Assembly (NCBI RefSeq): GCF_003030465.1 | Contig: NZ_CP028339.1 | Coordinates: 310,001 to 374,000, forward strand | Direction of reading: 5' to 3' | Source of the DNA: Thauera aromatica K172 | Lineage (GTDB): Bacteria; Pseudomonadota; Gammaproteobacteria; Burkholderiales; Rhodocyclaceae | Length of the DNA stretch: 64,000 nucleotides | Shown here: in pieces, positions 18,663 through 38,477 of the stretch | Numbering within the stretch: position 1 is the stretch's first letter | How the letters are laid out: the number at the start of each line of letters is the position of its first letter | Translations under genes and position numbers: made by a program | The notes under the pieces: model-generated | The model's input: the letters and a program-made list of their open reading frames with translations, nothing else | Told to the model about the DNA's origin: nothing | Database searches by the model: none

Positions 18663-21551
18663 TCAGGCCAATGCATCCAGCGCCAGCGGCTCGATGCCCC
18701 GCGCACGATCGATCTTCTCGGCCACGCGGAAGGCAGCATCCAGTTCGTTGATGCCATGCTGTTGCATGAGCTGGTGGCGCTCGGCCTTCTCCTCCGGTTC
18801 GGTCATCGCCATCGCCAGGTAGAGGCTGGGCGGCACGGCGCGGAACAGCACTTCCATGCTCTTGGAGAGGATGACGCCCTCCGAGAAGGCGCCAGCCTGC
18901 TTGCGCGCCGACAGCATCAGCGCCTTCTGCGAAGCGTTGAGTTCGCGGAAGCGCGCGACCTTCTCCACCTCGTCCGGCGGCATCGACAGGCAGATCCACC
19001 ACTCGATCATGTTGAGCATGGGCTCGGCCGCCTTGGGCAAGTCGTCGAGGTTTTGCGTGGCCAGCCAGAACCAGGCACCGAGCTTGCGCCACATCTTGGT
19101 GATCTTGACGATGTACGGCGAGAGCAGCGGGTTCTTGGTGATGATGTGGCCTTCGTCCGTCACGTTGACGATGGGTCGGCCGAGATACTGGTCCCGCTCG
19201 GCGATGTTGTTCACCGTGTTGATCAGCGAGATGTAGGCAATGGAGAGCTGCGCGTTGTAGCCCTCACGGGCGAAGGTCGCCAGATCCACGATCGTGATGT
19301 CCGCCTCGGGCCACGGCGTTCCCGGACGGTCGAACATCTCACCGTCCACGCCCTGGCAGAACATATCCATCGCGTCCGCCATCTCCTGCAGCCTCGCCCG
19401 CCGCGTCTCCGGCAGCGTGGCATCGCGGCTGCGCTCGCGCAGCGCGTCGCGCACGTCGCGCGTGAGCGCCGTGCGTTGCTCGGCCACGCAGCGCCGCGCC
19501 GCGTCGAGGATGCACTGGCGGATCAGGCTGCGGTCGGCGCGCGTCATGCGCGCTTCCTCGCGCTCTTCACCGCCCGTGATCATCAGCCGCGCCGTGATCT
19601 CCAACTCGCCGAGCACGTCGCGCTGCTCGTCGCCTTCCATCGCCGCAGCAGTTTCGGCGCGGTCCTCGTCGAGCGCGTCGGCGTCGAGCGTCTGCACTTG
19701 GCCCGGCGTATCGACCAAGCGCCAGGCATCGGCAAACGGGGCCAGGCTGACGCCCGAGCCTGGTGCGAGCTTCACGCGGTTGACGCTGAGCCCAAGGCGC
19801 GCGGCGAAGTCGCCGAACAGCCCGAACGAGTTGCCCGCTTCGACGATGAACAGCCGCGGCCGGTAGATGGCGGTGACCTGGTTGAGCAGGTTGTTGAGGG
19901 TCGCGGATTTGCCGGAACCCGTGGGACCGAACAAGAACAGATGCGCATTCATCTGCCGGTCGAGCCGGTTCAGTGGGTCGAAGCTGATCGTGCCGCCGCC
20001 GCGGTTGAAGAAGGTGATGCCGGGGTGGCCTGTGCCCTGGCTGCGGCCCCAGACCGGCGCCAGGTTCGCGGCGTGCTGCGCGAACATGAGCTGCGTGTAC
20101 CACCCGCGCTTGTCGGCGGCCGGGTCGTAGACGCAGGGCAGCCAGCGCAGGTAGCTGTTCAGCGGCGCCACCTCGTCTTCCTCGCGCACCGGCTGCAGGC
20201 CCGCGTTGAGCATCACATTGACGAGTTGCAGGCCGCGCGCGTCGAGCTGGGCCTGATCTCGACCACGCAGGTAGAACGCCAGCGCGCCGCGGTAGAGCTT
20301 GTGCGCGCTGCCGATCAGGCCGCGGGCCTGCTGCACGTCCGCGCGCGTCTGTTCGGAGGCCAGGGTTTCGCCGACGGCCTTCTTGGCGAGGTGATTGAGA
20401 TGGCTTTCCAGCACGTCCTGCGGTGTCGCCACCACGGTCAGGCACATCACCGTGTCTTCCGGCATCTGGTCGAACAGCGCGTTCATGGCGTCGCCGCCCT
20501 TGCGCGTCTCGCCCGTCAGGTGTCCGGTCGCCGGCGGCGTGCGCAGGCGATCCATCACGATGACGCGATGCGGGAGCCCATCGAAGAACCACAGGCCCTG
20601 CTCGACATCCGAGCGCGGCGGGCCGAAGAACAGTCGCTGCGCGAAGTCGGTGCCGCTGGCGAGTTCGACTTCGCCCTCCTCGGGCTCGTCGGGGTAGCGG
20701 GTCAGCGCATAGAAGCGCTCGCGGTCTTCGGCGCTCGGGCCGAGCAGGGTCGGATGTGGATTGAACCAGCGCAGCAGCCAGGCGTGGATGTCCGCCGCGC
20801 CGAGGCGCCGGGCCTTCACGCCGGCATTCGCCAGCCCGCCCACCAGGCGGTCGCAGATCGTGGTCAGCGCCTGCTCGGGCGACTGGCCGCGCCGCGTGGC
20901 CGCGGCCGTAGGCGTGCGGCGGTAGACCACCATGCGCACGCGCCGCACCTGGCCGCGCCACGGCAGGCGGGTAACGGTGGTGTCCTCGAACAGCCCGCCC
21001 GGCTTGGCGATGGCGCGCAGGTGGTGGGCAAAGAAGCGCTGGTAGAACTCGCTGAACGCGCTGCCCCGCGCACGCGGCTGCACGTAGCCCGCCAAGTTGC
21101 TCAGGTAGGGGTTCCAATCGACTTCATCCTGGGCGTAGAGCTGCACCACCCAGGGGTTCTCATCGAGTTCGTCGAAGGAGTCCTGCAGGGCGTTCTCCAG
21201 CGCATCGCGGGCCTGCCACAGCCAGGCCAGCTCACGGCCTTCAGTGCCCACCGGCAGCAGCTCGAAGAACGCGGCCACCGACTGCCCGTCTTCGAGCAGC
21301 ATGGCCTTCGAGCCCGGCAGGTACTCGGCCCACGGCAGCATGTCCGCGAACGACGGCGCGACGGTGTAGAGCGCATCGTGGTCGGCCTGGGTCGCGGGCC
21401 GGCGCTGGCCGGCGAGCGCGCCGCCGGGCTCGGGTATGCCCTGCGCGGCCAGCGTCGCGACATGCTGCGCCCAGGCGTCGTCCGCCGCCTGCGCACCACC
21501 CGCCGGAGGAGCGACCCCCTTGCGCGGCCACGGCAGCGACCAGGCCATCAA
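18663..21551 (-). CDS. Conjugative transfer ATPase, TIGR03744 family (VirB4/TraC-type)
   Basis: This 962-residue cytoplasmic ATPase powers assembly of the mating pilus and substrate transfer. The Walker A motif FGPTGSGKSATLNNLL lies near residues 540-555. A Walker B-type region (RPIVNVTDEGHIITKNP) lies near residue 795, and WFWLATQNLDDLPKA follows it. The length is normal for the PFL_4706/TIGR03744 family. Its start overlaps the stop of the lipoprotein gene upstream by four bases. A very long open frame on the opposite strand is an artefact of the high GC content. The gene looks intact, so this part of the machinery is not decayed. Confidence 0.95.
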   Translation of the reverse strand: MMAWSLPWPRKGVAPPAGGAQAADDAWAQHVATLAAQGIPEPGGALAGQRRPATQADHDALYTVAPSFADMLPWAEYLPGSKAMLLEDGQSVAAFFELLPVGTEGRELAWLWQARDALENALQDSFDELDENPWVVQLYAQDEVDWNPYLSNLAGYVQPRARGSAFSEFYQRFFAHHLRAIAKPGGLFEDTTVTRLPWRGQVRRVRMVVYRRTPTAAATRRGQSPEQALTTICDRLVGGLANAGVKARRLGAADIHAWLLRWFNPHPTLLGPSAEDRERFYALTRYPDEPEEGEVELASGTDFAQRLFFGPPRSDVEQGLWFFDGLPHRVIVMDRLRTPPATGHLTGETRKGGDAMNALFDQMPEDTVMCLTVVATPQDVLESHLNHLAKKAVGETLASEQTRADVQQARGLIGSAHKLYRGALAFYLRGRDQAQLDARGLQLVNVMLNAGLQPVREEDEVAPLNSYLRWLPCVYDPAADKRGWYTQLMFAQHAANLAPVWGRSQGTGHPGITFFNRGGGTISFDPLNRLDRQMNAHLFLFGPTGSGKSATLNNLLNQVTAIYRPRLFIVEAGNSFGLFGDFAARLGLSVNRVKLAPGSGVSLAPFADAWRLVDTPGQVQTLDADALDEDRAETAAAMEGDEQRDVLGELEITARLMITGGEEREEARMTRADRSLIRQCILDAARRCVAEQRTALTRDVRDALRERSRDATLPETRRARLQEMADAMDMFCQGVDGEMFDRPGTPWPEADITIVDLATFAREGYNAQLSIAYISLINTVNNIAERDQYLGRPIVNVTDEGHIITKNPLLSPYIVKITKMWRKLGAWFWLATQNLDDLPKAAEPMLNMIEWWICLSMPPDEVEKVARFRELNASQKALMLSARKQAGAFSEGVILSKSMEVLFRAVPPSLYLAMAMTEPEEKAERHQLMQQHGINELDAAFRVAEKIDRARGIEPLALDALA

Positions 21552-21982
21552 TAGTCCTCCACCCGTTCGCCGGGCATTGCGTACTGCACGCGCTGGTACA
21601 ACGGGAACACCGTGCTGTAGCCAGGCACCGGCACCGGGTCGGTGCCGGCCAGATGCGGGAACACGTACATCACCAAGTCGGGATTCGGCAGGCGATGAAA
21701 CTGCCGGTAGATTTCGTTGCTCGCGGTGCGCGTGTAGCGCTCTTGCACGGCGGGTGTGGCCTGCACGTCGGCTTCGGTCAGCGGCCGGCGCAGGCCCTGG
21801 CGTGCGTCGAGCAGTTGCCGTGCGGTGGGACCGCCGCCTTCGCCGCCGCCGGTCTCCTGCTGCCAGATGTCGAGCATGGTGTTGTGGCCGTGGGGCAGCA
21901 GCTTCTCCTTGCTGGTCGCGCAGCCGCCAAGCAAGACGGCCGCCAGCAGGATGGCGGCCGCGTCAATCCAGGTCCGAGGCAT
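21548..21982 (-). CDS. ICE conjugal transfer lipoprotein, TIGR03751 family
   Basis: This 144-residue protein has a signal peptide with the lipobox LLGGC (lipidated Cys at about residue 21), so it is expected at the outer membrane. It plays the part of VirB7/TraV, stabilising the core complex with the VirB10-like protein encoded just upstream. It overlaps that gene by 20 bp and the ATPase gene by four bases. The C-terminal half carries no recognised domain. Confidence 0.88.
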   Translation of the reverse strand: MPRTWIDAAAILLAAVLLGGCATSKEKLLPHGHNTMLDIWQQETGGGEGGGPTARQLLDARQGLRRPLTEADVQATPAVQERYTRTASNEIYRQFHRLPNPDLVMYVFPHLAGTDPVPVPGYSTVFPLYQRVQYAMPGERVEDY

Positions 21983-23420
21983 GGGCTTCTCCGATGCGGT
22001 GGTTCACCCGACGCCCCTGGGCGTCGCGGTCGATATGGAGCGGCTGCTCCAGATGCACGGCGACCCTGGCGCCGGGCTGCACGTAGACGGCCGCGAAGGC
22101 CTGGCCATACAACTTGTTGACCCAGTCGGCCATGTCGCGCACGCCACCGGCCAGGATGCGGCCCATCGCTTCGTTGCCGCCGATGCCGACCGTGCCGAGC
22201 GAGCCGTTGCTGTTGGCGACCACGGCGACGCTGCCGTTGTCGGATTTGATGAGCGAGGCCGCGCCCGCGCCGGCCGCGGTGATCAGCGCCTGGCTGCCGA
22301 GGTACTGCTGCGCATTGCTGCGCCGCTCGCCGCTGACGCAGGGAATGCCGTAGGGATCGCTGATCCAGCCCAGGCCGCCTTGCGTGGCACTCGTCGTGCC
22401 GTTGGCTTGCTCGCCGCGCTGGTCCCGGTTGCCGTCCTCGGGCACGGTGCGGATGGTGCCGTCGCGGAACACGAAAGTGACCGAACGGATTTGCCCGCGC
22501 ACGCACGAAAGCGTCCAGTCCCCCGATGCCGTGCCGCTGACCACGGCGCCGGCCACGTCGGGGATGTCGATGCCGTTTGCCGTCAGGTTGTCCGGGCCGA
22601 TCAGCACCTTGAAGGGGTACGGGTCATTGACCGTGCCGTCGATGGGCACGCGGCCGATCAGCGCCGTCATCGCCACCGAACCCATCAGCGTCGCATTGCG
22701 CGGCACCGTGTAGAACGGCGTCGTGGTCGCGCCCACGGCGCCGACCACCGCACGGCCGCCGGCATCGGCGACGGACTCCACGGCGGCCGACAGGGTTTTC
22801 TGCGCCGGGCCGAAGCTCAGTGGAAAGCTCGGTTCCTTGCTGCTGTTGCGGGCTTCGGCCTTGGCATCGCCCGGTTCGACCCACTGTGTGCCGTTGCCCG
22901 CGCCGCTGCCGTCATTGTTGCCGAAGCGCTTGCCGTCGCCTTCTTCCAGACCCAGCCCGACGGGCAGGTCGACCTGGCCGCCTTTGCCGGAGAGGCCATC
23001 GAGCCGCTGCTGCAGATCCTGCAGCAGCCCCTGCGTCTGCTGCTTCTCGCTCGCCACCTGCTCGCGTTCCTGCTGCGAGCGGCTGCGTTCGCTTTCGAGC
23101 GCCGTCTGGATGCGCTGGTCGATCGCGCTCTCGCGGGTGCGCAGGCGCTCGTTCTCGGCCTTCTGCTGCCGGTTGTCGCCCAGCGCGGTCTGCAGCTCGG
23201 TGCGCAACTGTTTCACCTGCGCGACCAGCGTGGCCACCGTGTCGCGCGGCGTGTCGCCCTCGATGCCCAGAGCCTTCATCTCCTCGGGCGTGAGCGGGTT
23301 GGCCGTGCCCGACAGTGCGGGCCGCTGGCCGGCGGGGCCGGAGAACAGCTTGATGCCGACGAACACCAGCAGCAGGATCACGGGGATCAGCAGCCACTTG
23401 AGCAGCGGGTTACTTTTCAT
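21963..23420 (-). CDS. ICE conjugation protein, TIGR03752 family (TraB/VirB10-like)
   Basis: This 485-residue protein has one N-terminal membrane helix (about residues 7-24). A predicted coiled coil rich in Glu, Gln and Arg follows (about 60-145), then a C-terminal TrbI/VirB10-like domain. This is the topology of the channel scaffold that spans both membranes. The ATG at 23420 (MKSNPLLKW) begins right before the membrane helix; ten further in-frame codons upstream are unlikely. It overlaps both neighbours in the operon. Confidence 0.9.
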   Translation of the reverse strand: MKSNPLLKWLLIPVILLLVFVGIKLFSGPAGQRPALSGTANPLTPEEMKALGIEGDTPRDTVATLVAQVKQLRTELQTALGDNRQQKAENERLRTRESAIDQRIQTALESERSRSQQEREQVASEKQQTQGLLQDLQQRLDGLSGKGGQVDLPVGLGLEEGDGKRFGNNDGSGAGNGTQWVEPGDAKAEARNSSKEPSFPLSFGPAQKTLSAAVESVADAGGRAVVGAVGATTTPFYTVPRNATLMGSVAMTALIGRVPIDGTVNDPYPFKVLIGPDNLTANGIDIPDVAGAVVSGTASGDWTLSCVRGQIRSVTFVFRDGTIRTVPEDGNRDQRGEQANGTTSATQGGLGWISDPYGIPCVSGERRSNAQQYLGSQALITAAGAGAASLIKSDNGSVAVVANSNGSLGTVGIGGNEAMGRILAGGVRDMADWVNKLYGQAFAAVYVQPGARVAVHLEQPLHIDRDAQGRRVNHRIGEAHASDLD

Positions 23421-24315
23421 CGGACGCTCCTCCAACCGTGCCGGCGGCACCGGGCGGCGGCAGATTCACGCTGGCGTCGATGGGGCTCAGCCTGGGCAGC
23501 AGCGCCTCGGCCAGACCGCGGCCGCGCGTGACCAGGTAGACCACGGTGGTGTCGGACGCCTGGCCGGCCGGCCCCAGGTTCGGGTGCTGGAAGGTGGCCG
23601 CCACGAAATTGCCCTGCAGCGCACGCGGATCGAGGTCCAGCCAGCGCGCCGCCGTGTTGGTGAGCCGCACCGCCGTCACCCACTGGTCTTCGAGCCGCCA
23701 GGCGGCCAAGGCCCGCGCCTGCACCGGCAGCGTCGGCAGCAGGGTGTCCAGCGGGAGGTCGCGGCGCAGGTTCACGCGGCCGATCCCGGCGACCGGCTCG
23801 ACGGTACGCAACGGCGCGTACAGGTTCTGCGCGGCGTAACGTGTCAGCACGACCGGGACGGGTGTTTCGCGCTTGCGCACTTGCCGATCCGGTGCGGCGG
23901 CTTCCGTGGCGCCGGCCGTCTCGCCGCCGTAGCGCGTGGCGGGCGACTGCTGCGCGTCCACGATGCGCACCGGCTCCAGCGGGGGCTGTCCGACCTGCAC
24001 TGGTTCGGCGGCGATGTCGAGCAGGATCAGCGCGCCGGACTCCACGTCCTGCAACTGCAGCCGCGTCGGCGGCAACGGTTCGCCCGCCCGCAGGTAGATC
24101 GCGCCGCCCGCGCTCTGCACCCGCAGGTGCGCGGCCGCGCTGTCCGGTACGCCGACACGCACGTTGCGGTCGATGAAGATCACCCGCTCCTGGCCGACCA
24201 CCAGCTGCACCGCCAGCGGCAGGCGTTCCCAGCGCAGGATTTCCACAGCCTGAGCCGGCGCGAGCGCGAGCCACAGCAAGACGCCGGCAAAGGCCGACAG
24301 GGCATGGCGTTTCAT
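23410..24315 (-). CDS. ICE conjugation protein, TIGR03749 family (TraK/VirB9-like)
   Basis: This 301-residue protein starts with a cleavable signal (MKRHALSAFAGVLLWLALAPAQA). A beta-rich N-terminal domain of the TraK/secretin-partner type follows, with EILRWERLPLAVQL and RVIFIDRNVRVGVP. It probably belongs to the outer-membrane core together with the TIGR03752 and TIGR03751 proteins. Its ATG lies within the end of the TIGR03746 gene, and it overlaps the next gene by 11 bp. The reading frame stays open far upstream, but the signal peptide fixes the start at 24315. Confidence 0.88.
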   Translation of the reverse strand: MKRHALSAFAGVLLWLALAPAQAVEILRWERLPLAVQLVVGQERVIFIDRNVRVGVPDSAAAHLRVQSAGGAIYLRAGEPLPPTRLQLQDVESGALILLDIAAEPVQVGQPPLEPVRIVDAQQSPATRYGGETAGATEAAAPDRQVRKRETPVPVVLTRYAAQNLYAPLRTVEPVAGIGRVNLRRDLPLDTLLPTLPVQARALAAWRLEDQWVTAVRLTNTAARWLDLDPRALQGNFVAATFQHPNLGPAGQASDTTVVYLVTRGRGLAEALLPRLSPIDASVNLPPPGAAGTVGGASDEK

Positions 24316-24986
24316 GGGGAGTCTCCCTGCGAGTGGCCGGATGCGGCGCCGGGCGTCGGCGACGTCTCGATGCGCTGAGGCGCGCTGGCATGGCAGTCCA
24401 GCGCCAGGCCGAAGGGGTTGCGCTCGGGATCGACGTCCATGCGCACGACCTTGAGGGCGTAGCGCACCAGGGCACGCTTGACCTGCTCGGAGCCGTGGTA
24501 CTCGTCGGCGCTCACGTCCAGCGTGACGATCCAATCGCGGTCGGAGACGGCCTTGACGCGCGTGCTGGGGCTGTCGCCATAGCCGCGGCCGGGAATCTCG
24601 TAGATGCCGCGCACGCGCTGCCGCAGCTCGCCGCTTGAGCGACGGTACTCGTAGTCCTGTTGCAGGAAGGCCCGGCAGCTCGGCGTGAAGTAGGCCGACA
24701 GCGCGTGCAGGTTGCGCGGGTAGTCGGTCTCGCCGTTGGTGGGCCAGCGCTGCGCCTGCTGCCAGATATAGAAGCTGAACGCGTACACGCTCTCGGGCGG
24801 CACGTCCCACCACTTGCGCACGCTGCCCGAGCGCAGGTCGGGCGGCACGTGGATCGTCAGATCGCGCGGTGCGCTCCACCAGCCGAAACCGAGCAGCAGC
24901 GCCACCACGAACAGCGCCGCGCCGCCCAGGCGCAGCGTCTTCACATGTGCCTGCAGGTGCGCGACCTCGTTCCTGAAACGGCTCAT
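24312..24986 (-). CDS. ICE conjugation protein, TIGR03746 family (TraE/VirB8-like)
   Basis: This 224-residue protein has one membrane helix at about residues 19-38 (LRLGGAALFVVALLLGFGW) and a soluble periplasmic domain. This matches inner-membrane assembly proteins of the TraE/VirB8 kind. The segment FSFYIWQQAQRWPTNGETDY is typical of the family. It overlaps the TIGR03750 gene upstream and the TIGR03749 gene downstream by four bases each, which indicates tight translational coupling. Confidence 0.88.
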   Translation of the reverse strand: MSRFRNEVAHLQAHVKTLRLGGAALFVVALLLGFGWWSAPRDLTIHVPPDLRSGSVRKWWDVPPESVYAFSFYIWQQAQRWPTNGETDYPRNLHALSAYFTPSCRAFLQQDYEYRRSSGELRQRVRGIYEIPGRGYGDSPSTRVKAVSDRDWIVTLDVSADEYHGSEQVKRALVRYALKVVRMDVDPERNPFGLALDCHASAPQRIETSPTPGAASGHSQGDSP

Positions 24987-25393
24987 GCCGCACCTCGGTC
25001 GGCCGTGCGCCGTGTGCTCCACCGGCCCGTGCGGGTGATCAGACGGCACCCGCCCAGGTGAGCGGCGAGCACTGGATAGCGCAAGGTCAACCGCCACTGA
25101 AGCTGCCGGTACAGCCAGGTGTCAGGACGGCCGCGCTTCTGGCTGCGCAGGAAGCCACCGCCGACGAAGACGCCGAGCGCGATGCCCGCGACGATCAGCG
25201 TGGGCACCATGGCAATGCTGCGCGTCAGCCAGGCCAGGGGCACACCGAGCACCAGCCCGGCGGCCGCCGACAGGCCGGCGCAGATCCACAGTTCATCGGC
25301 GGTCAGTCCGCGCACGACCACCGGCTGGCGATTCAGCCGGTGCGGCAGGAACGTCACCAGCGCGTCGCGCGCTGTCTCCGCGGGGGTGGCCAT
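24983..25393 (-). CDS. ICE conjugation membrane protein, TIGR03750 family (TraL/VirB3-like)
   Basis: This 136-residue protein has two adjacent membrane segments (about residues 33-80) followed by a basic tail. This is the VirB3/TraL plan for a protein that links pilin to the VirB4 ATPase. The N-terminal stretch LPHRLNRQPVVVRGLTADEL is characteristic of this family in ICEclc-like elements. It follows the pilin-like gene by 12 bp and overlaps the next gene. Confidence 0.87.
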   Translation of the reverse strand: MATPAETARDALVTFLPHRLNRQPVVVRGLTADELWICAGLSAAAGLVLGVPLAWLTRSIAMVPTLIVAGIALGVFVGGGFLRSQKRGRPDTWLYRQLQWRLTLRYPVLAAHLGGCRLITRTGRWSTRRTADRGAA

Positions 25394-25405
25394 CGCGCGC
25401 AGCCC

Positions 25406-25774
25406 TTACAGCACGCCGGTGGCTTTGGTCAGCAGCCAGATGCCGACGACCAACAGGATCGCACCCACGGCGACGGTCAGCCCGAACTGGCCCCAGGTGG
25501 CGCGACCCGTGTGAATCTCGGAGTAGCGGGTGTAGGCGTGGTAGCAGACGCCGACGAACATCGAGGCGACCACGAGCAACGCGATCAGCATCACGATGTC
25601 GTAGCCGTAGTTCTGCAGCGTCTGCATAAGGCCGCTGCCCTGGCCGCGGGAGGGGTCTTCCATTGTCGGCAGGCCCTGCGCGAACACGGATGGCGGCAGC
25701 CCCAGGAGCGCCAGCGGCGCCAGCAGCGTGGCGATGCGCGAGGGAACGCGAGAAGTAGTCGGAGGCGTGTGCAT
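25406..25774 (-). CDS. ICE conjugation membrane protein, TIGR03745 family (pilin-like)
   Basis: This 122-residue protein has a signal-like N-terminus (about residues 10-33) and two further hydrophobic segments near residues 50-75 and 95-118. The small size and two-helix body fit a VirB2/TraA-type prepilin, though that function is inferred from position and topology. It lies between the TIGR03758 and TIGR03750 genes, as in other elements of this type. Confidence 0.85.
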   Translation of the reverse strand: MHTPPTTSRVPSRIATLLAPLALLGLPPSVFAQGLPTMEDPSRGQGSGLMQTLQNYGYDIVMLIALLVVASMFVGVCYHAYTRYSEIHTGRATWGQFGLTVAVGAILLVVGIWLLTKATGVL

Positions 25775-25796
25775 GATCGATGGCCCTTCGTGATGG

Positions 25797-26030
25797 TCAG
25801 GAGAGGAGGAAGAAGGTCAGCACCAGGTACATCGCGACGAAGCGGATGCAGACGCCCAGGAACTGACGTTGATTGATGCGGTTCTCGGCCCAGCCCACGT
25901 AGGCCGTGCGCATGGCCCACACGCCCCACAGCAGCAGCACGGCGAACACGAAGCCGAGCACCACGACGGACACCGCCGAGGGCGCAAAGCCACCGTTGGC
26001 CTGGAAGGCGGCGATCTGCTCGGCGGTCAT
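25797..26030 (-). CDS. ICE conjugation membrane protein, TIGR03758 family
   Basis: This 77-residue protein has two membrane segments (about residues 18-42 and 58-76) and begins MTAEQIAAFQANGGFAP, which is typical of the family. It is a small inner-membrane component of the mating apparatus, possibly pilin-related. It overlaps the RAQPRD gene stop by four bases. Confidence 0.85.
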   Translation of the reverse strand: MTAEQIAAFQANGGFAPSAVSVVVLGFVFAVLLLWGVWAMRTAYVGWAENRINQRQFLGVCIRFVAMYLVLTFFLLS

Positions 26031-26380
26031 GGCGAGTGCTCCGCCTGTTCGTCGCGGCGCAGGTAGTCGCCGGCCAGCGGAACGGGATCGCGCGGCTGGG
26101 CGCGCTGGGGCACGAGGAAGTCCTGCAAACCGGTGCGCACGCGCTTCAGGTCGGCGCGCAGCCGGGCGTAGTCGAAGTGATGGCGGGCGCGCGCCTGCGG
26201 CGCGGTAGTGGCGGCGTGCTCGGCCAGTCGGTCGATCAGGTCGAGCTGGCGCGCGAGCGCGGCGAGCTGCTCACGCTCCGGGGTGTCGTCGGCACTGGCG
26301 GGTTGCGGGGCCGAGAGCGACACGGCCAGCAGCACGGCCAGCGAAGGCCATGCGGACGCGCGGCGGTTGGTCTGTCCCAT
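26027..26380 (-). CDS. RAQPRD family ICE protein
   Basis: This 117-residue exported protein has a signal peptide (about residues 1-30, ending PASADD). It contains the literal signature RAQPRD near residues 92-97, which names the family (TIGR01690). Its role in conjugation is not known. In related elements it follows the TIGR03747 gene and TraD. Here neither is present upstream, and the next gene is the CBASS nucleotidyltransferase on the same strand. It is therefore the first surviving gene of the transfer operon, with no clear promoter of its own. Confidence 0.88.
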   Translation of the reverse strand: MGQTNRRASAWPSLAVLLAVSLSAPQPASADDTPEREQLAALARQLDLIDRLAEHAATTAPQARARHHFDYARLRADLKRVRTGLQDFLVPQRAQPRDPVPLAGDYLRRDEQAEHSP

Positions 26381-26574
26381 CGTGCCATTCCCAAGTGAAG
26401 CGAATGGCCTTGATGCTGTATCCCTTGCTCGGCTCGCGCCGCAATCAAACGGAACCGGTGGTCAACCGTATTTCAGATGTGTTGGTTGATCTGCTAATCG
26501 GTTTCGTCGGCCGGCTCGCCGTCTGCCCGCAGATCGACCACGTCCACGCAGCGCCATCCTTTATGGGGCACGCC
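26381..26574. other. Junction between transfer operon and defence island
   Basis: These 194 bp hold no complete gene. Directly after the nucleotidyltransferase stop the same frame stays open for another 26 codons (26574-26497), beginning GVPHKGWRCVDVVDL. This could be read from a GTG at 26571 as a 25-residue peptide, or be the remnant of a lost gene. No terminator hairpin with a T run is visible, so transcripts from the CBASS genes may continue into the transfer genes. Confidence 0.45.
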
Positions 26575-27468
26575 CTACCATTCGTTCCAGAGCTTTACCG
26601 CCGCTTCGATGAATTCATCACAGGCTGCCTGCCGCCAACACGTGTGGGAACTATCTCGCAGCAGGTAATACTGCTCGTTGGCGCACACGAGGTCGGTTTT
26701 CGAGGCATCCTGCCGATACCAATTCAAGGCGTTGACCACGCAGTCCTGATAGCTGGTGGTGAGCTTCTCGTTCGGTACGTTGTACAGCAGGCCTTCTATG
26801 TAGTACGAAGGCGCGATACCAGCCTTGATCAAGCCATCTTCGAACATCCGGCTGCGCATGTTCTTGAACACTCGGGCCATAGGTTTTAGCCACTTCGATG
26901 ATGCCTGATGCTTCGCTGTCAGGTTTGCCGAGTGCTGCTTTGGGTAGTTCGCGATTCGCTCGCCGGCAGCGTTGAAGAAGCAGATGCCTTCGACGTACTC
27001 AGAGTCGCTCGCTGACCGGAACTTGAAGTAGCGCCGGAATTGCGTCGCGACAATCACGTCTGACTTGCGCCGTGAACCGTTCGCGTCGATGGCAATCGCC
27101 TTGTCGCCGGCTTTCACGGCCGAGCCATATTGGCGATCAAGCACTGACAGCACGTCCCGCTTGAAGTCGGCATGGGTGTACGTCGCGTCGCTGAATGCCT
27201 GCTTGTAGGCTGACTTTTCGTCATCTGACAGAGATTCGAGATCGCTGTGAAAGCAGTCGTCGAGTCGGATGACGATGTCAACATCGCTCTCGGCGTAGAT
27301 ATTCGTGTCGTTGCCGTACGAGCCTTGAAGGAACACCTTGAAGTTCTTGCTGGCATACGGCGTGGTGCTGGCCTCCAGGACGCTCTTGATCGTGTTGTAG
27401 GTGTTGCTCGATTGGGTGATCGATCCCTGGTGAGACCACGTTTCGAGCTGCGATTCTGAAATTGGCAT
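26575..27468 (-). CDS. CBASS cyclic-oligonucleotide synthase (CD-NTase)
   Basis: This 297-residue nucleotidyltransferase is of the DncV/cGAS-like superfamily. The catalytic signature is Gly49-Ser50 in [10 protein letters not shown], Asp62 and Asp64 in [11 protein letters not shown], and a third acidic residue, Asp137, in [10 protein letters not shown]. In CBASS such enzymes sense infection and make a cyclic di- or trinucleotide that activates an effector. The effector gene is the patatin-like gene 14 bp upstream, with AGGGGAAAGAAG as ribosome binding site. There are no Cap2/Cap3 or HORMA/TRIP13 genes, so this is a two-gene type I system. The clade and nucleotide product cannot be told from sequence alone. 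Its GC content looks lower than that of the neighbouring transfer genes. Confidence 0.88.
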
Positions 27469-27482
27469 CTTCTTTCCCCTGG

Positions 27483-28430
27483 CTATATCAAATACTCGCG
27501 AAGTTGCTTCTCCCGCGACGCGAACGACTCCCGTCCTCGCTGGAACAAGATGCCCAGCTTCTTGATGTCGTGCTCCAGCAGATCGGTCGCCATTTCAGGC
27601 GTGACGTAGGAGTCGTTGATCCGGATGGTCAGTAAGTCAGGGAACAGAATCTGCCGCAGCTGGTCCATCGACTGCGTGTTGATCTCCAGGGTCTTCTGCA
27701 GCAACTGGACGCTGACGAGATATTTCTTCGCCAGCCACATCAGCAGGCTCGGCTTCGGGTCGGGGTAGATGCCCACGCCGACGCTCACCAGCCGGATGTC
27801 CTTGCGATCACTCCGAAGCGCTTGGACCGCATCGGCGATCGCGTACAGCGTCGGGTTGTTTGCGCAGTACCCGCCGTCGATCAGCTCGATGTCCTCGCCC
27901 ATTGAGGTCCTGACGATCGTTCGCTCGAAGAACGGGTAGGCCGAGCACGATGCCTTGACGGCGTCCGCGATGCTCACGCCAAAGCCCGGGGCGAACGTGC
28001 CGACTTGGCCATGCGCCTGCGCGACGCTGCCCTTGAAGATCATCGGGCGCTCGGTCAGCCACTTGGCCGTGACGATCCCGATGCCGGTCTTGACATCACT
28101 GAACGTTGCATCGCCGAAGACCTCGCTCGCCAGCTTCTTCAAGGCCTGCGACCTGGCCGGAGCGGTCTTCTGCGACATCACGGTAGGCACGTGCTTGCGG
28201 TACAGCTCCAGGATGGAGTCGACGCTGTGACCGAGCGCGATCAGTGACGCGATGATCGCGCCCGTACTGGTGCCGAAAACCAGATCGAACTTCTGGTGCA
28301 GTGGGCACCCGATCATCGCCTCGATTTCCTTGAGTACGCCCAGCGTGTAAAAGCCCTTGGCGCCGCCGCCGTCCAGCGTAAGGACGCGCAGTAAGGCAGA
28401 CGATCCAGATTCTTCTTGCGACTCCATCAT
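27483..28430 (-). CDS. capV: CBASS patatin-like phospholipase effector
   Basis: This 315-residue patatin-fold lipase has the oxyanion loop GGGAKG at residues 21-26, the nucleophile elbow GTSTG with Ser55, and the catalytic Asp185 in DGGYCANNP. In CapV-type effectors, cyclic nucleotide binding turns on phospholipase activity, which degrades the inner membrane and stops phage growth. It is the first gene of the pair with the CD-NTase. I chose the ATG at 28430 because GGGGAGG lies 9 bp before it; an ATG at 28463 is in frame but has no such site. All catalytic residues are present, so it is probably functional. Confidence 0.9.
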
Positions 28431-28588
28431 CTTCACTGTCCTCCCCGCCGCTGAAGAACGCACGCACCGCCGACGACCATCAGCTCAACCCTGAGCATGA
28501 AGCCGTGCCGCTCCAGTGTCCCCGGTTTCATGTGTAGCTCGGCCAAATTCTGCATGGTGTCCGCACGGTCCTCTCGTCACTGCGGCGC

Positions 28589-28713: not shown

Positions 28714-29628
28714 ATGTCGAACGAACAGCTTGCAGATCTAACCCAGCCACAACGCGACCGGCTCGCGTTCGTGGAGTTGCGCGTGCGCTTCATCGGGGAG
28801 ATACGCCGCCAGGACTTGGTCACGCGGTTCGGCATCCAGTCCGCCGCCGCATCCAGGGACCTGGCGCTGTACAAGGAGTTGGCACCGGGCAACATCGACT
28901 ACGACCCCAAGGGCAAGTCTTACGTCCTTGGGGCCAACTTCCAGCCCGTCTTCGACTTTCCCCCGGAGCGGGTTCTGTCGTGGCTGACCCAAGGCTTCGG
29001 CGATGGCGAGCCGATGCGGCTCAAGGCGTGGGTGGCCAGCGAGAGCCCGTCACGGCTCACGCACCCAGATCTCGATGTGCTGGCGAGCGTTACCCGAGCA
29101 ATCCACCAGGAATGCCCGCTGGGCATCGAGTACCACTCCATCTCCAGCGGCCGCACTGAGCGGGAGATCGTGCCCTTTGCCTTGATCGACAACGGCCTGC
29201 GCTGGCACGTCCGCGCCTTTGACCGTAAGTCGCAGGAGTTCCGGGATTTCGTCATCACCCGGATTAGGCGCCCCGTCGTGCTCAAGGGCCAGCCAGTGGC
29301 ATCCCATGAAGCGAGCGATCAAGACATTCAGTGGACCCGGATCGTCGAACTGGAGCTGGTGCCACATCCAGACCAGCCCCGGCCAGAGATCACCGAAATG
29401 GACTACAGCATGCAGGGTGGCGTGCTGCGGATGAAGCTGCGTGCCGCCACAGCCGGCTACATCCTTCGCCAATGGAGTGTGGACTGCACGCCCGACCACA
29501 GCCTGCGCGGGCACGAGTATCGGTTGTGGCTGAAGGACCACCTGGCCATCTACGGCGTGCGCAATGCCGTGCTGGCGCCGGGCTACCGCTCTCCTGATCA
29601 ACAACGGCTCGAAGCCGAGGCGGACTGA
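28714..29628 (+). CDS. brxR: WYL-domain transcriptional regulator (BrxR/CapW type)
   Basis: This 304-residue protein has an N-terminal winged helix (about residues 10-70, with RFGIQSAAASRDLALYK). A WYL domain follows (about 120-195, with RWHVRAFDRKSQEFRDFVI), then a WCX-like C-terminal region. BrxR and CapW proteins of this layout are homodimeric repressors of BREX and CBASS operons, respectively. Here one such gene lies between the two systems, divergent from capV and 3 bp ahead of brxF. It may therefore control both. The family is clear; the dual role is inference from position and the shared palindrome. Confidence 0.88.
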   Translation: MSNEQLADLTQPQRDRLAFVELRVRFIGEIRRQDLVTRFGIQSAAASRDLALYKELAPGNIDYDPKGKSYVLGANFQPVFDFPPERVLSWLTQGFGDGEPMRLKAWVASESPSRLTHPDLDVLASVTRAIHQECPLGIEYHSISSGRTEREIVPFALIDNGLRWHVRAFDRKSQEFRDFVITRIRRPVVLKGQPVASHEASDQDIQWTRIVELELVPHPDQPRPEITEMDYSMQGGVLRMKLRAATAGYILRQWSVDCTPDHSLRGHEYRLWLKDHLAIYGVRNAVLAPGYRSPDQQRLEAEAD

Positions 29629-29631
29629 GGG

Positions 29632-30093
29632 ATGAGCATGCTGGCAAAACTCGAACGACTCATCGGCGAAATCGGCGACCTCAACAGCAAGTTGATCCTG
29701 CTGGTCGGACCCAGCCGCAGCGGCAAGACCCAGCTGCTGCGCCAGCTGGGCGACAAGCTCAGCATCGAGCCGCTCAACGTCGGCATGGAGCTGGGGCGTC
29801 GACTGGCGGCCACGCCAAACAACAAGCGCGGTTTCTCGGCGGGCGAACTGCTGCGGGAGATCGCGGACAGGGAACGGACTGAAGATCCGCTGTTGCTCGA
29901 CAACCTCGAGTTGTTGTTCGAGCCCAGCCTGCAGGTCAACCCGCTTGACCTCGTCAGGCGGCTGGCTCATTCCAAACGCGTCGTGGCCGTCTGGCCGGGC
30001 GAGCTGCGCGGCGACCGCTTGGTGTACGCGGACATGAGCCACCCAGAACATCGTGACTACAGCCGCGACGGCGTGGTCGTACTCGAAATTTGA
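29632..30093 (+). CDS. brxF: BREX type 3 P-loop protein BrxF
   Basis: This 153-residue ATP-binding protein has a Walker A motif at residues 26-33 (GPSRSGKT) and a Walker B-like LLLDNLELLF near 85-94. BrxF is the first structural gene of type 3 BREX, followed by brxC, a PglX-type methyltransferase, brxHII, pglZ and brxA. Here it directly follows the regulator, and brxC was originally 23 bp downstream. An IS66 element now separates the two. The brxF frame itself is intact, but a BREX system without the methyltransferase and PglZ is not expected to work. Confidence 0.88.
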   Translation: MSMLAKLERLIGEIGDLNSKLILLVGPSRSGKTQLLRQLGDKLSIEPLNVGMELGRRLAATPNNKRGFSAGELLREIADRERTEDPLLLDNLELLFEPSLQVNPLDLVRRLAHSKRVVAVWPGELRGDRLVYADMSHPEHRDYSRDGVVVLEI

Positions 30094-32566: not shown

Positions 32567-34465
32567 TGGCCAAGAACATGAAATACGGAGATCTGATTCA
32601 GTTCGAGCAGATCGAGTCAGTCATTCAACTGCTCGATGCCGGGCGCCCAGACGAGGCCAAAAAGCTCGTCGCGACCTACGTCATCTCCGACGACATGGCC
32701 GAGCGGATCTCCAAGCTCATGGTTCCCCAGCTCAGCTTCGACGAGTCGGTCGATCACAAGGGTGTGCTAATCGTCGGCAACTACGGCACAGGTAAGTCGC
32801 ACTTGATGTCGGTGCTGTCGCTGGTGGCCGAAGACGCTGCTTACGCGCCGATGATCCGCCACCCCAAGGTGGCCGAGGCGGTTGCCCCTATCGCTGGCCG
32901 CTTCAAGGTGCTGCGCATCGAGGTGGGCGGACTGCAAATGCCCCTGCGCCAGATCATCACCCTGCAGCTTGAGCGTTTCCTCGAAAAGTTCGGTGTCGAC
33001 TACACCTTCCCGACCGCCGACAAGGAGCTCAACAACAAAGACTCCTTCGAGGAGATGATGGCCGCTTTCGGCGAGAAATTCCCGGACCAGGGCGTGCTGC
33101 TGGTTGTCGACGAGTTCCTGGAGTACCTGCAGTCCCGCCGCGATCACGAACTGGTGCAGGACCTGGCCATCCTCCGTCAGATCGGTGAAGTCACCAAGCA
33201 CCTGAAGTTCCGCTTCGTGGCTGGTGTGCAGGAAGCCATCTTCGACAGCGTGCGCTTCCAGCACGTCGCCGACAGCATGCGCCGCGTCAACGAGCGCTTC
33301 ACCCAGATCCTGATCGACCGTCAGGACGTCAGCTTCGTCGTCTCTGCGCGCCTGCTCAAGAAGACGGCTGACCAGCAGAACAAGATCCGCGAGTACCTGA
33401 CGCCGTTCGCCAAGTTCTATGGCTCCATGAACGAGCGCATGGACGAGTACGTGCGGCTGTTCCCGGTTCACCCCGACTACCTGAAGACCTTCGAGCAGAT
33501 CCACTTCACCGAGAAGCGAGGCGCGCTCAAGACCATCGAGTCCGCCATGCTGGCCATCCTCGACCAGGAAGTACCCGCCGACAAACCGCTGTTCATCAGC
33601 TACGAGAGCTTCTGGAACACCATCAAGACCAATTCGGTTTTGCGTGCCGACCCTAACATCAAGGAGGTGATGCGCGTCTCCGAGGTACTGGAGTCGCGGG
33701 TCCAGCAAGCCTTCACGCGTCCAGCCTACAAGCCGATGGCGCTGCGCGTCATCAACGCGCTGGCCGTCCATCGCTTGACCACGGGCGGCGACATCCATGT
33801 GCCCATTGGCCCCACGGCTGCCGAGTTGCGCGACGCCTTGTGCCTGTTCCAGCCAGGCGTGGAGGACATGCCGGGCGATCCGGCCGAGAACTTGTTGTCG
33901 ATGGTCCAGACCGTCATGCGGGAAGTGCTGAAGACCGTCAACGGCCAGTTCATCTCCAAGGCGCCGGACACCGAACAGTACTACCTCGACCTCAAGAAGG
34001 ACATCGACTACGACGCGCAGATCGAAAAACGCGCCGAGGCCCTGTCAGACGACGCACTGGACCGCGCCTATTACAGCGCCGTCAAAGCGCTGATGGAGTG
34101 CAGCGACGACCTGCGTTATCCCGGTTTCCAGATCTGGCAGTACCAGCTCGAGTGGCAGGAGCGCCGCGTCGAGCGCATGGGCTACCTGTTCTTTGGCGCG
34201 CCGAATGACCGACCCACGGCCCAGCCCGAGCGCGACTTCTACATCTACTTCATCCAGCCCTTCGACAAACCGAAGTTCAGCGACAACAACCTGGCAGACG
34301 AGGTGTTCTTCCGTCTGAAGTCGCCGGACGAGGACTACAAGCGCTACCTGTCGCAATACGCGGCGGCACTGGATCTGGCATCCACCGCCAGCGGTGGCGC
34401 GAAGGCCATCTACCTGTCCAAGGCGCAGGACTCACTGCGGTCCATGAGCAAGTGGCTGCAGGAAA
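32566..34465 (+). pseudogene. brxC: BREX type 3 BrxC, truncated by IS66
   Basis: The surviving 633 codons encode the front half of a large AAA-type P-loop protein of the BREX BrxC/PglY family (type 3), normally about 1200 residues. Walker A is GNYGTGKS at residues 71-78 and Walker B is LLVVDEF near 178-184. At 34466 the frame enters the second IS66 element and ends at 34626 after about 53 foreign codons. The start codon is preserved, but the first IS66 element has removed its ribosome binding site. With both ends damaged and no other BREX gene downstream, it is very unlikely to support BREX. Confidence 0.9.
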
Positions 34466-34540
34466 GTAAGCGTCCGGCGCGCCCACCTGTGATTGCGGAG
34501 GTGGTTTGCGGACACTCCTGGTTTTTTGCAGGAGGTCGTG

Positions 34541-34867
34541 ATGAGCCATCATTCCGAGCGCGCTGCGCGCTGGCGTGCGCATGTGGAGCAGTGGCGGCGC
34601 AGCGGTCAGACGCAGGCGGCGTATAGCGCCGAGCATGGGTTGAACAAGAAGTCGCTGGGGTACTGGGTGCGCCAGGGACGGGCGGTGGCCGCGCGCAAAT
34701 CGGACGCGTTCCTGACCTTGGTGGCGGCCCGCCCTGTCGGCGTCACCTCGCCGCTGCAGGCGGCGGGGGTCCTGTCGCTGCGTAGCCCGTCTGGCTGGTG
34801 CCTGGAGTTCGCTACGCTGCCGTCGGCGTCGTGGCTGTCCGAAGTGCTCGCGCACCAGGCGCCGTGA
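34541..34867 (+). CDS. tnpA: IS66 accessory protein TnpA (copy 2)
   Basis: This 108-residue IS66 Orf1 protein begins [18 protein letters not shown] and closely resembles the copy 1 protein in its N-terminal helix-turn-helix, with more change in the C-terminal half. GGAGG lies 5 bp before the ATG. Its stop overlaps the tnpB start. Confidence 0.92.
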
Positions 34868-35205
34868 TGATCTCGCCCGATCAGATCTGGCTGGCGGTCG
34901 AGCCGATCGACATGCGTCTGGGCATCGACGGCCTGTCGGCACGGTTGCAGAACAGCCTGGGGCGCGCCCCGTGCGACGGCAGTGCCTACGCCTTCATCAA
35001 CCGGGCGCGCACGCGCCTGAAGGTGCTGGTGTGGGACGGCACCGGGGTGTGGTTGAGTCAGCGTCGCCTGCATCGGGGCAGCTTCAGCTGGCCCCGTGCC
35101 GACAACGCGGTGTTTGCGCTGTCGGCCGAGCAATGGCAGTGGCTCGTGGCGGGGGTCGAGTGGCAGCGCCTGAGCGCCGCGGCACCGGCCCACTGGCAGG
35201 TGTGA
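34867..35205 (+). CDS. tnpB: IS66 accessory protein TnpB (copy 2)
   Basis: This 112-residue IS66 Orf2 protein begins [20 protein letters not shown] and is nearly the same as the copy 1 protein. The ATG overlaps the tnpA stop (GTGATGA). It is intact. Confidence 0.92.
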   Translation: MISPDQIWLAVEPIDMRLGIDGLSARLQNSLGRAPCDGSAYAFINRARTRLKVLVWDGTGVWLSQRRLHRGSFSWPRADNAVFALSAEQWQWLVAGVEWQRLSAAAPAHWQV

Positions 35206-35301
35206 TCGGTGCGCCGAAACCATCCACGATCCGCTGCGCAAAAGAGCCTGAAACCCTTGTAGATGCTGGGATGTAGCGCGTTATTCGGGTATAATTCCGG
35301 C

Positions 35302-36867
35302 ATGGATTCCGCTGCGCAACTGACTGCTTTCGACCTGCCGCCCGAGCTCGTGCAGCAGGTTCAGAGGTGGGTCGCGCAGGCGGCTGATGTGACCCGCCTC
35401 GAAGCCGAACTCAAGCTGAGCAAGATCAAGATCGAAGCGCTGGTCCATGAGATCGCCGTGCTCAAGCGCCTGCGTTTCGGCGCCAGCAGTGAGGCCCGGG
35501 CGGCGGATATGAAGGATCTGTTCGACGAGACGCTCGCGGCCGATCTGGCCGCCTGCGAAGCCCGCCTCGAAGCGCTGCGCGAGACTCCGCCCGAGGCGCC
35601 GCCGGCGAGCCCGAGGCGCCCGCGTGCCGGACGGCCTGCGCTGCCGGCACACCTCGAGCGCATCGAACATCGCCACGAACCTGAATCGTGCACCTGTGGT
35701 CAGTGCGGGCAGGATCTGGTCAAGATCGGCGAGGACGTCTCCGAGCAGCTCGACATCATCCCGGCCAAATTCTTCGTCCATCGCCACATCCGCCCGCAGT
35801 ACGCGTGCCGGCGCTGCGAGACGGTGTCGGCCGCGCCCGTGCCGGCGGCGATCATCGACGGCGGGATGGCTGCGCCGCGGCTGCTGGCGTGGGTGACGGT
35901 GAGCAAGTTCGTCGATCATTTGCCCCTGTACCGGATCGAGCAGATCGCCGCGCGCAGCGAGGTGCCGCTACCGCGCTCGACGCAGGCCGAGTGGGTCGGG
36001 CGGATCGGGGTGGCGCTCGCGCCGCTGTGCGATCGCCTGATCGAGCGCCTGCGCGAAGGCAACGTGTTGCATGCCGACGAAACCCCGGTCGAACAACTTG
36101 ATCCGGGGCGCGGCAAGACCAAGCGGGCGTATCTGTGGGCCTACCGCAGCAACACACTCGATGCCGACCCGCCCATCGTCATCTTCGATTACCAGCCCGG
36201 TCGCGGCGGGCAATACCCCCAGGCCTTCCTGAAAGGCTGGAAGGGCATGCTCATGGTCGATGACTACGGGGGCTATAAGGCCCTGTTCGGTGGCGACATC
36301 GGAGAGCTTGCCTGTCTGGCGCACGCACGACGCAAGTACTTCGAGCTTCACCAGGCGAACAAGAGCCCGGTCGCGGCCGAGGCACTCGCGCGCATCGGCG
36401 AGTTGTACGCGCTCGAAGAGCAGGCCCGCGACGTTTCGGTCAAGGTGCGCGCCGAACTGCGACTGCAGTACGCGCAGCCGCGCCTGGAGGCGATGTACCT
36501 GTGGCTGGTGCAGACCCGCAAGACCGTGGCCGACGGTGCGGCGCTCGCCCGCGCCATCGACTACAGCTTGAAGCGCTGGCCGGCGCTCGCGCGCTATGCG
36601 AGTCGCGGCGATTGGCCGATCGACAATAACCCGATCGAGAACGCCATCCGGCCGATCGCCCTGGGCAAGAAGAATTGGATGTTTGCGGGCTCCGAAGCCG
36701 CCGGCAAGCGTGCCGCCGTGGTTCAATCCCTGCTCGCCACGGCGCGCGCCAATGGCTTCGAACCGCTGACCTGGCTTGCCGATACGCTCGAGAAGCTACC
36801 GACCTGGCCCAATAGCCGCATCGACGAACTGCTGCCGATCAGAAAGCAAGCGGCTGCGCAAGCGTAA
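35302..36867 (+). CDS. tnpC: IS66 transposase TnpC (copy 2)
   Basis: This 521-residue DDE transposase has the same layout as copy 1: coiled coil, cysteine pairs, LHADETPV, MVDDYGGYK and NNPIENAIRP catalytic segments. The region after residue 90 is shorter by four residues and has several substitutions. The two copies are therefore related elements, not fresh duplicates. A good -10 (TATAAT) lies 12 bp before the ATG. It is intact. Confidence 0.93.
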   Translation: MDSAAQLTAFDLPPELVQQVQRWVAQAADVTRLEAELKLSKIKIEALVHEIAVLKRLRFGASSEARAADMKDLFDETLAADLAACEARLEALRETPPEAPPASPRRPRAGRPALPAHLERIEHRHEPESCTCGQCGQDLVKIGEDVSEQLDIIPAKFFVHRHIRPQYACRRCETVSAAPVPAAIIDGGMAAPRLLAWVTVSKFVDHLPLYRIEQIAARSEVPLPRSTQAEWVGRIGVALAPLCDRLIERLREGNVLHADETPVEQLDPGRGKTKRAYLWAYRSNTLDADPPIVIFDYQPGRGGQYPQAFLKGWKGMLMVDDYGGYKALFGGDIGELACLAHARRKYFELHQANKSPVAAEALARIGELYALEEQARDVSVKVRAELRLQYAQPRLEAMYLWLVQTRKTVADGAALARAIDYSLKRWPALARYASRGDWPIDNNPIENAIRPIALGKKNWMFAGSEAAGKRAAVVQSLLATARANGFEPLTWLADTLEKLPTWPNSRIDELLPIRKQAAAQA

Positions 36868-38164
36868 GAGGCCGTGGGTGCGGCGGACGCTTACGGTGAA
36901 TCGTCAGGTGCATGCTGGCGACCTGTACCTGGCCTTGCTCGAACAAGTCGAGGCGGTCGGCCCAGTCCTGCATCATCACCCGCCGCTGTTCAACGTACTC
37001 GGCATGGTTGTAGGTGGCGCTGATGCGATTGGGGTCAGCGTGGGACAGTTGCGAGTCCACCCATACCTTCGGATACCCCAGCTCATTGAGCGCCGTGGAA
37101 AGAGTGGCCCGGATGCCGTGACCGGTCAGCCTGCCGTCGTAGCCCAGACCCTTGATCGCAAAGTTCACAGTGTTCTCGCTCATGCGGTCGGTGACACGCT
37201 TGACGCCAGAGAACAGATATTTCTGGGCAGGCTTGAAGTCGTCCAGCATGTGCCGAACGATCTCCATCGCCTGCACGGAGAGCGGGACGATGTACGGCGG
37301 GATGTCGGTGACGCGCTTGCGCTTCTTGCGGGTGAGCATCTTGCGCTGCTTCAGCGACAGCACCGGGATGATCCACAGCCCCCGATCCAGATCGAACTGA
37401 TCCGGCGTGGCCAAGCGCAGCTCGCCGGTGCGGACGCCGGTCAGCAACAGCAGCCGGATCGCCAGTTGCGTCTTCAGCATCCCCCGGTATTTGCGCAGCC
37501 CCTGCAGGAACAGCGGCAGCTCGGCCATGCGCAAAAAAGGGTTGTGCTCGACCGGCGGCAGCGGGATGGCCACCACATGCAGGTCGGTGGCCGGGTGGGT
37601 TTCCATGGACGGAATCACGACCATGGCGTAGTCGAACAACTGCTTGAGCCAGGTGCGCATTTTTTCCGCGACAGACAGCGAGCCACGCTTTTCGATGCGG
37701 GCGATGACTTCCAGCAGCAGCGGGCGGGTGACCTCGTAGATGGTCGACCGCTTCAAGTGCGGGAAGACATCGTTCTTGAAGGCGCGGCGGATCTGATCGA
37801 GCGAGCTTTGACGGCCCTCTTCAAGGGTGAGCTGCCGATGCTCCAGCCACTTCTCATAGACCGCGATGAAGGTGTTGTCGCCTGCCAGTTTGATGGCTTG
37901 GCGCTTTTGCTTGCGATCGATACGGGGGTTGATACCTTTGGCAAGCAGGGCTCGCGCTTCGTCCCGCAGATCACGGGCTTCACGCAGCGACAGCTCGGGA
38001 TAGCTACCCAAAGAGATGCGAGCGCGCTGGCCAACCCACGTGTACCGAAAGTGCCAGAGTTTGGCACCGTTGGCCGATACGAAGAGTGAGAGGCCGTTGA
38101 AGTCGGCGATGGTGTAGGGCTTGCCGGTGGCCTTGGCCTGCCGAGCCATCATGTCGGTGAGCAT
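36839..38164 (-). CDS. ICE tyrosine integrase, C-terminus replaced by IS66 sequence
   Basis: This is a site-specific recombinase of the P4/DUF4102 type. The N-terminal arm-binding domain covers about residues 1-95, the core-binding domain about 95-200, and the catalytic domain has Arg245 (TGVRTGEL), His349 and Arg352 (GHGIRATL), His375 (LSHADP) and Tyr385 (ISATYNHAEY). All catalytic residues are present. Native sequence ends at residue 423; the last 18 codons (36894-36839) read into the IS66 end. The gene points away from tRNA-Gly, as usual for elements inserted in a tRNA 3' end. Whether the altered tail permits excision cannot be judged from sequence. Confidence 0.9.
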   Translation of the reverse strand: MLTDMMARQAKATGKPYTIADFNGLSLFVSANGAKLWHFRYTWVGQRARISLGSYPELSLREARDLRDEARALLAKGINPRIDRKQKRQAIKLAGDNTFIAVYEKWLEHRQLTLEEGRQSSLDQIRRAFKNDVFPHLKRSTIYEVTRPLLLEVIARIEKRGSLSVAEKMRTWLKQLFDYAMVVIPSMETHPATDLHVVAIPLPPVEHNPFLRMAELPLFLQGLRKYRGMLKTQLAIRLLLLTGVRTGELRLATPDQFDLDRGLWIIPVLSLKQRKMLTRKKRKRVTDIPPYIVPLSVQAMEIVRHMLDDFKPAQKYLFSGVKRVTDRMSENTVNFAIKGLGYDGRLTGHGIRATLSTALNELGYPKVWVDSQLSHADPNRISATYNHAEYVEQRRVMMQDWADRLDLFEQGQVQVASMHLTIHRKRPPHPRPLTLAQPLAF

Positions 38165-38402: not shown

Positions 38403-38420
38403 TGGAGCGGGTGAAGGGAA
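38403..38420. other. Presumed ICE attachment site in the tRNA 3' end
   Basis: The tRNA-Gly 3' end (TGGAGCGGGTGAAGGGAA on the plus strand) lies directly beside the integrase region. Elements of the ICEclc type integrate at such a site and leave a short copy at their far end. The far copy would be left of this window and was not seen, so the exact core length is unknown. Confidence 0.6.
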
Positions 38421-38477
38421 TCGAACCCTCGTCATCAGCTTGGGAAGCTGAGGTAATAGCCATTATACGACACCCGC
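38403..38477 (-). tRNA. glyU: tRNA-Gly (anticodon CCC)
   Basis: Read on the minus strand, the acceptor arms GCGGGTG and CACCCGC pair perfectly. The anticodon arm is TCAGC-TTCCCAA-GCTGA with anticodon CCC. The T-arm is GAGGG-TTCGATT-CCCTT, with one G-T pair, and the encoded 3' end is TCCA. It decodes GGG. The 3' half is the presumed integration target of the ICE, and the tRNA is still complete. Confidence 0.95.

Follow-up and report, generated by a model that had tools for sequence, protein, structure and literature searches.

In Thauera aromatica K172, the second of two IS66 elements in a type 3 BREX remnant (IS66 no. 2) marks the joint of a rearrangement and not a simple insertion, with the first half of brxC on one side and the interior of an integrase gene on the other. 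A BREX system lost and an integrase truncated are both recorded at this joint, with transfer genes missing as well, and it offers a readable case of IS elements and stacked ICEs breaking defence islands. The window, which is the whole stretch of DNA analysed (64,000 nucleotides, G000:C1:310001-374000), belongs to a two-contig genome (3,711,792 bases, 99.95% complete); positions below are those of the window (Table 1), negative ones lying before its first base. With a confidence just short of even, we propose that this IS66 copy is a rearrangement scar in ICEs stacked at tRNA-Gly(CCC), where an inversion carried by IS66 would have been followed by a deletion at the far end. The event is of an ordinary kind of mobile-element damage, and the literature searched, in titles and abstract openings, gave no account of such a brxC-IS66-integrase joint.

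Table 1. Features around the joint, in window positions
Feature	Position	Strand	Basis
ICE T4SS block: TIGR03744, 03752, 03746, 03750, 03745, RAQPRD	18663-26380	-	NCBIfam
CBASS-type pair: CD-NTase 26575-27468, phospholipase effector 27483-28463	26575-28463	-	PADLOC
WYL-domain regulator, upstream of brxF	28714-29628	+	PF13280
brxF	29632-30093	+	PADLOC PDLC02497
IS66 no. 1, 86% to no. 2, between brxF and brxC start codon	30118-32558	-	BLAST, flank comparison
brxC 5' part, 633 codons	32566-34465	+	DUF6079 positions 1-631 of 1238; PADLOC BrxC
Left flank octamer GCAGGAAA, within brxC	34458-34465	+	direct flank comparison
IS66 no. 2, complete, 2429 bp	34466-36894	+	end comparison, Pfam
tnpB of IS66 no. 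2	34867-35205	+	PF05717 (TnpB_IS66), E 7.3e-37
tnpC (transposase) of IS66 no. 2	35263-36867	+	PF03050 (DDE_Tnp_IS66; E 1.4e-94), PF13005, PF13007, PF13817
Right flank octamer GGTGAATC, within integrase gene, not at gene end	36895-36902	+	direct flank comparison
Tyrosine integrase body, 423 native codons, C-terminal extension lost	36896-38164	-	Pfam, alignment to G277
tRNA-Gly(CCC), presumed integration site, adjoins integrase	38403-38477	-	14-bp repeat match

IS66 no. 2 carries both proteins by which the family was recognised in Pfam, the DDE_Tnp_IS66 transposase and TnpB, and its two ends share 19 of their first 21 bases; in Pfam, the ORF placed where tnpA would lie (34541-34867) is without a match. 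In a published table, two Paracoccus IS66 elements are entered with an 8-bp duplication (PMC3281130). A reading of this DNA made earlier from its letters alone (the sequence-only reading) had stated that no such duplication surrounds IS66 no. 2, and this is borne out, as the octamers GCAGGAAA and GGTGAATC differ. A perfect 8-bp duplication, GCTCCTTC, stands at both ends of L002 (G000:C1:249121), a full-length copy with 0 mismatches in 2429 bp, and GAACCATA is found at both ends of IS66 no. 1. Since these two elements do have 8-bp duplications, IS66 no. 2 is a rearranged copy and not a member of another family. The flanks of IS66 no. 2 are carried by none of the other genome copies found. A sister octamer at L002 was entertained where BLAST seemed to run 9 bases into the left flank, and was dismissed when direct comparison showed alignment extension only. 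The remaining matches in the genome are a 2092-bp fragment, L003 (G000:C1:2872433-2874524; IS positions 338-2429, 100% identical), a fragment of IS positions 1-391 with 1 mismatch, L005 (G000:C1:1920025-1920415), and one BLAST match of 69 bp at 79%. The two truncated copies lie at distant sites, and their IS positions overlap by 54. A promoter and terminator scan of the joint gave no signal above shuffles.

The left flank is brxC, as had been said, and is cut about halfway, brxC of the relative G277 having 1246 aa. On the right, the sequence-only reading saw the 3' end of an integrase; the gene was rightly named, but the flank is not its end, the G277 homologue (635 aa) running about 212 codons further. 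The window copy lacks these codons and has gained 18 read from the IS. The integrases of G048, G169, G250 and G158 have about 615-641 aa, counted from the start of the match. Within its 423 codons the body retains the arm-binding, central and catalytic Pfam domains, with 97.6% amino acid identity to the G277 integrase over 423 aa, and the C-terminal extension of the latter has no Pfam match. As the catalytic domain is kept, the truncated integrase may still excise the island.

When relatives were aligned, which had been put forward as the check, brxC and the integrase gene each proved to be unbroken across the breakpoints in G277 and G158. The landing of IS66 in an already fused brxC/integrase was rejected, because a simple insertion would leave a duplication. 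In a survey of brxC loci (80 kept of 244 relatives found; E 1e-15; flanks of up to 10 kb), brxC is complete to its end in 77 and is followed by pglX in 74. Neither arrangement that would have spoken against the sequence-only reading, the same IS with matching duplications or brxC beside the integrase without it, came to light at these loci: no integrase homologue lies downstream of brxC and no IS66 transposase homologue occurs in any of the 80 (E 1e-15; flanks of up to 10 kb), and the integrase homologues near brxC in 3 of 80 loci are always upstream on the same strand. Two of the three remaining brxC matches end 2 bases from the edge of the fetched stretch, and the third is L138, where brxC stops at about residue 540 (around L138:11626) and is followed by other ORFs, unlike the case of IS66 no. 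2; this loss is apparently independent.

The core of type 3 BREX has been described as brxF, brxC, pglXI, brxHII, pglZ and brxA (PMC12839542), of which the window shares brxF and brxC; relatives have pglXI, a BrxH helicase, pglZ and brxA as well, all within a single operon. In contrast to that system, the window keeps only brxF and brxC positions 1-631, and another IS66 stands before brxC. Two scores speak against a clean type 3 label: the window's brxC reaches 48 bits on the NCBIfam BrxC model, against a cut-off of 400, and among PADLOC models the G277 helicase fits BrxHI best (1463 bits), with a lower score for BrxHII (291 bits). In G277 the order is WYL, brxF (identified by alignment to the window brxF), brxC, pglXI, a 432-aa ORF, BrxH helicase, pglZ and brxA. 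The methyltransferase, helicase, pglZ and brxA genes, named as losses by the sequence-only reading, thus follow brxC in just that order. Their removal, together with the 3' half of brxC, agrees with genome-wide searches: PglZ has no match in the window's genome (control: positive in 2 of 14 genomes), brxC is present only as its first half, DUF6079 occurring at one place only and ending at position 631, and 10.1 kb of the G277 pglXI-to-brxA block returned only one weak match of 125 bp at 72%. Relocation of the BREX 3' genes by the rearrangement was considered and rejected on these three results; judged by the searches the genes are lost, not moved, and the BREX system is predicted to be dead. 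It has been struck twice, by IS66 no. 1 directly before the brxC start codon and by the loss of the remainder at IS66 no. 2. The 432-aa ORF of G277 (L032:15530-16828), which lies between pglXI and brxH, has no Pfam or PADLOC match, and a 60% homologue adjoins brxH in L162.

IS66 is repeated in this genome (one full identical copy, one identical fragment of 2092 bp), and reads collapsed at a 2.4-kb repeat might have joined unrelated flanks in the assembly. Such an artefact is highly improbable in a genome of two contigs and this completeness, where the full copy has its own perfect duplication; moreover, there is no partner for a swap, because the 3' half of brxC is found nowhere else in the genome.

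The gene order of relatives places a further constraint on the joint. Starting at the tRNA, G277 and G158 have the integrase, X, a short gene, BREX, the MobH relaxase TraI and the T4SS genes, where integrase and BREX read away from the tRNA and TraI and the T4SS genes towards it. From the integrase on, the backbone of G048, G169 and G250 is ordered likewise, beside the same neighbouring chromosome. In the window's genome, leftward from the tRNA, there follow the integrase body, IS66, the brxC 5' part, IS66 no. 1, brxF, WYL and CBASS, and then the T4SS genes, cargo, TraI, the short gene, X, an integrase tail and a repeat, which is a 14-bp copy of the tRNA-Gly end at -8432 (G000:C1:301568). Relative to the integrase body, the block from the T4SS to the tail is oriented opposite to that of all six relatives compared (G277, G158, G048, G169, G250 and G100), of which G100 has its integrase in two pieces and none is a strain of the host's own species. 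The sequence-only reading had supposed an IS insertion into brxC followed by an adjacent deletion. The rearrangement joint and the gene loss hold, but a simple deletion does not suffice, because the rest would then be collinear with relatives and deletion alone cannot yield an opposite orientation; an inversion is needed, of which the IS66 joint may be one end. The direction of BREX itself is no evidence of inversion, since in G277 and G158 BREX is at another site, between TraI and the short gene after X. That short gene looks HTH-like by eye, and the ORF on its opposite strand has no NCBIfam match. The backbone is only 65-80% identical to that of G277, so the element is not G277's own ICE. 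Where a target duplication is missing, the gene order of relatives should be checked before a plain deletion is read.

The loss also extends further than BREX: besides the BREX 3' genes, the TraD block of G277 is missing, and the integrase is cut internally. After the RAQPRD site, G277 has TIGR03747, TraD, TIGR03765 and TIGR03759, a stretch for which there is no DNA match in the 170 kb of the genome's own sequence compared. Relaxase, T4SS genes, integrase body, tRNA and the 14-bp repeat of a PFGI-1/clc-type ICE are present, and the stretch with TraD is unmatched at the DNA level. ICEs of this type have TIGR037xx transfer genes and a MobH relaxase. The element resembles this type in TraI (TIGR03760), TraC (TIGR03744), TIGR03745/03746/03750/03752/03755/03756 and an integrase beside tRNA-Gly, and differs from it in the reversed orientation of the block with respect to the integrase, the TraD block of G277 not found in the region and the truncated integrase. 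Without the TraD block this ICE has probably lost self-transfer, unless a further ICE in its chromosome provides help. The presence of one is suggested by sequence at G000:C1:671570-720361 that matches ICE backbone DNA.

The integrase tail at the far end is foreign to the body. It begins at -8300 (G000:C1 ~301.7 kb), 132 bp from the repeat at -8432, and has 92-93% identity to G048/G100 over 61 aa and 54% to G277 over 74 aa. The 115 bp that precede it are 91% identical to the far end of G277, and the junction between the two has no IS and about 17 bases that match neither side. A body of G277 type with a tail of G048 type occurs in none of the 19 loci that have both parts, which comprise 2 of G277 type (L020 being G277 itself), 15 of G048 type and 2 of a third lineage; some of the G048-type loci, several in number, are near-identical, seven loci were found via tail DNA, and L063 shows only 99 aa of the body. 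Three more of the 22 loci compared (the window's own, L138 and L073) have no tail match. A single hybrid integrase gene as the source of body and tail is therefore less likely. Because body and tail are of two types, two or more ICEs have probably left remains here. A genome search for the G277-type tail gave three matches (64%, 70% and 72%), all outside the tail part of the query; as it omitted the diverged tail at -8300, which local BLAST shows, it excludes a close copy only. A further ICE remnant, 95% identical to G169/G250, is seen at and just outside the -8432 repeat (L049, G000:C1:300001-320000; about -10498 to -8414), where an apparent TraI fragment is joined to the upstream flank of an integrase beside the repeat.

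In the history proposed here, a first ICE would have carried a cassette of CBASS and type 3 BREX at the cargo site after the RAQPRD gene, and a second ICE would have been the source of the integrase body next to the tRNA. IS66 would then have formed a joint between brxC and the tRNA-side integrase with all DNA between them flipped, either because an IS residing in one of these genes transposed intramolecularly into the other, or because two copies in inverted orientation recombined. Afterwards, a far-end deletion would have removed the sister IS joint, the 3' half of brxC, pglXI, brxH, pglZ and brxA, as well as the TraD block and the body of the other integrase. The sequence comparisons establish the joint, the gene losses, the reversed orientation and the presence of two integrase types; the stacking of the ICEs, the succession of events and their mechanism are deduced. 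As no sister joint is left, and neither the 3' half of brxC nor a close copy of the G277-type tail was found, we infer the passage of the inversion through the IS. A narrower version, which seems rather improbable as a whole, is that a single intramolecular IS66 transposition inverted nearly the whole ICE against the tRNA-side integrase and cut the latter between its catalytic core and a conserved C-terminal extension, so that the shortened integrase might still excise the island and a self-transmissible ICE would have become helper-dependent.

The ICE may instead have been inverted earlier by another event, with endpoints near the repeat at -8432 and inside the tail of the second integrase, after which IS66 entered brxC and an adjacent deletion ran from the right end of the IS to codon 423 of the integrase. 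This covers the unequal octamers and all losses, and adjacent deletion, like recombination between copies, has been named by Ngan et al. as a frequent cause of missing duplications, insertion at breaks having been proposed as well (PMC11708052). Inversion first and IS-adjacent deletion second lead to the same present sequence as the IS66-borne inversion with far-end deletion, and by an equal number of events, two in each history. This alternative is nevertheless less likely in our estimation: it needs a separate inversion, and inversions that lack inverted repeats arise, in general, less often than deletions, though repeats may have lain at its endpoints, one of its two joints being lost. Because of this rarity we slightly favour the IS66-borne inversion with far-end deletion, the data being indecisive between them.

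Recombination might also have taken place between an IS66 copy in brxC and an identical, directly oriented copy in the integrase gene, with deletion of the interval and a hybrid copy bearing one octamer of each. The observed octamers would follow directly, and two such copies could have existed, as identical ones do in this genome; however, two insertions in the element and a separate inversion besides would be required, and a recombined copy cannot be told by sequence from a single one, so that we consider this course quite improbable. Either of the two histories above may also have proceeded by way of recombination between two copies of IS66. The preferred history, inversion through IS66 and then far-end deletion, resembles the IS-associated rearrangements without duplications reported in PMC11708052 in that an intact IS accompanies a large rearrangement and no target duplication surrounds it. 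It differs in that the retained block appears inverted and lies inside an ICE; in the main text of that paper, neither IS66 nor "inversion" occurs.

The defence genes next to the joint have counterparts elsewhere. The CBASS pair adjoins WYL also in the BREX loci L092 and L095, and an 80-bp element (26495-26575), at the end of which the CBASS pair starts, is common to the BREX loci L099, L107, L108 and L109 and may mark the left edge of a defence cassette that can be swapped. With the CBASS pair next to WYL or the 80-bp element present in other BREX loci, CBASS and BREX seem to form one cassette as a unit, which in the window occupies the site following the RAQPRD gene (26030-26380). In G169, about 17 kb that lack any long match to G277 or G158 come after the RAQPRD site, and then the backbone resumes.
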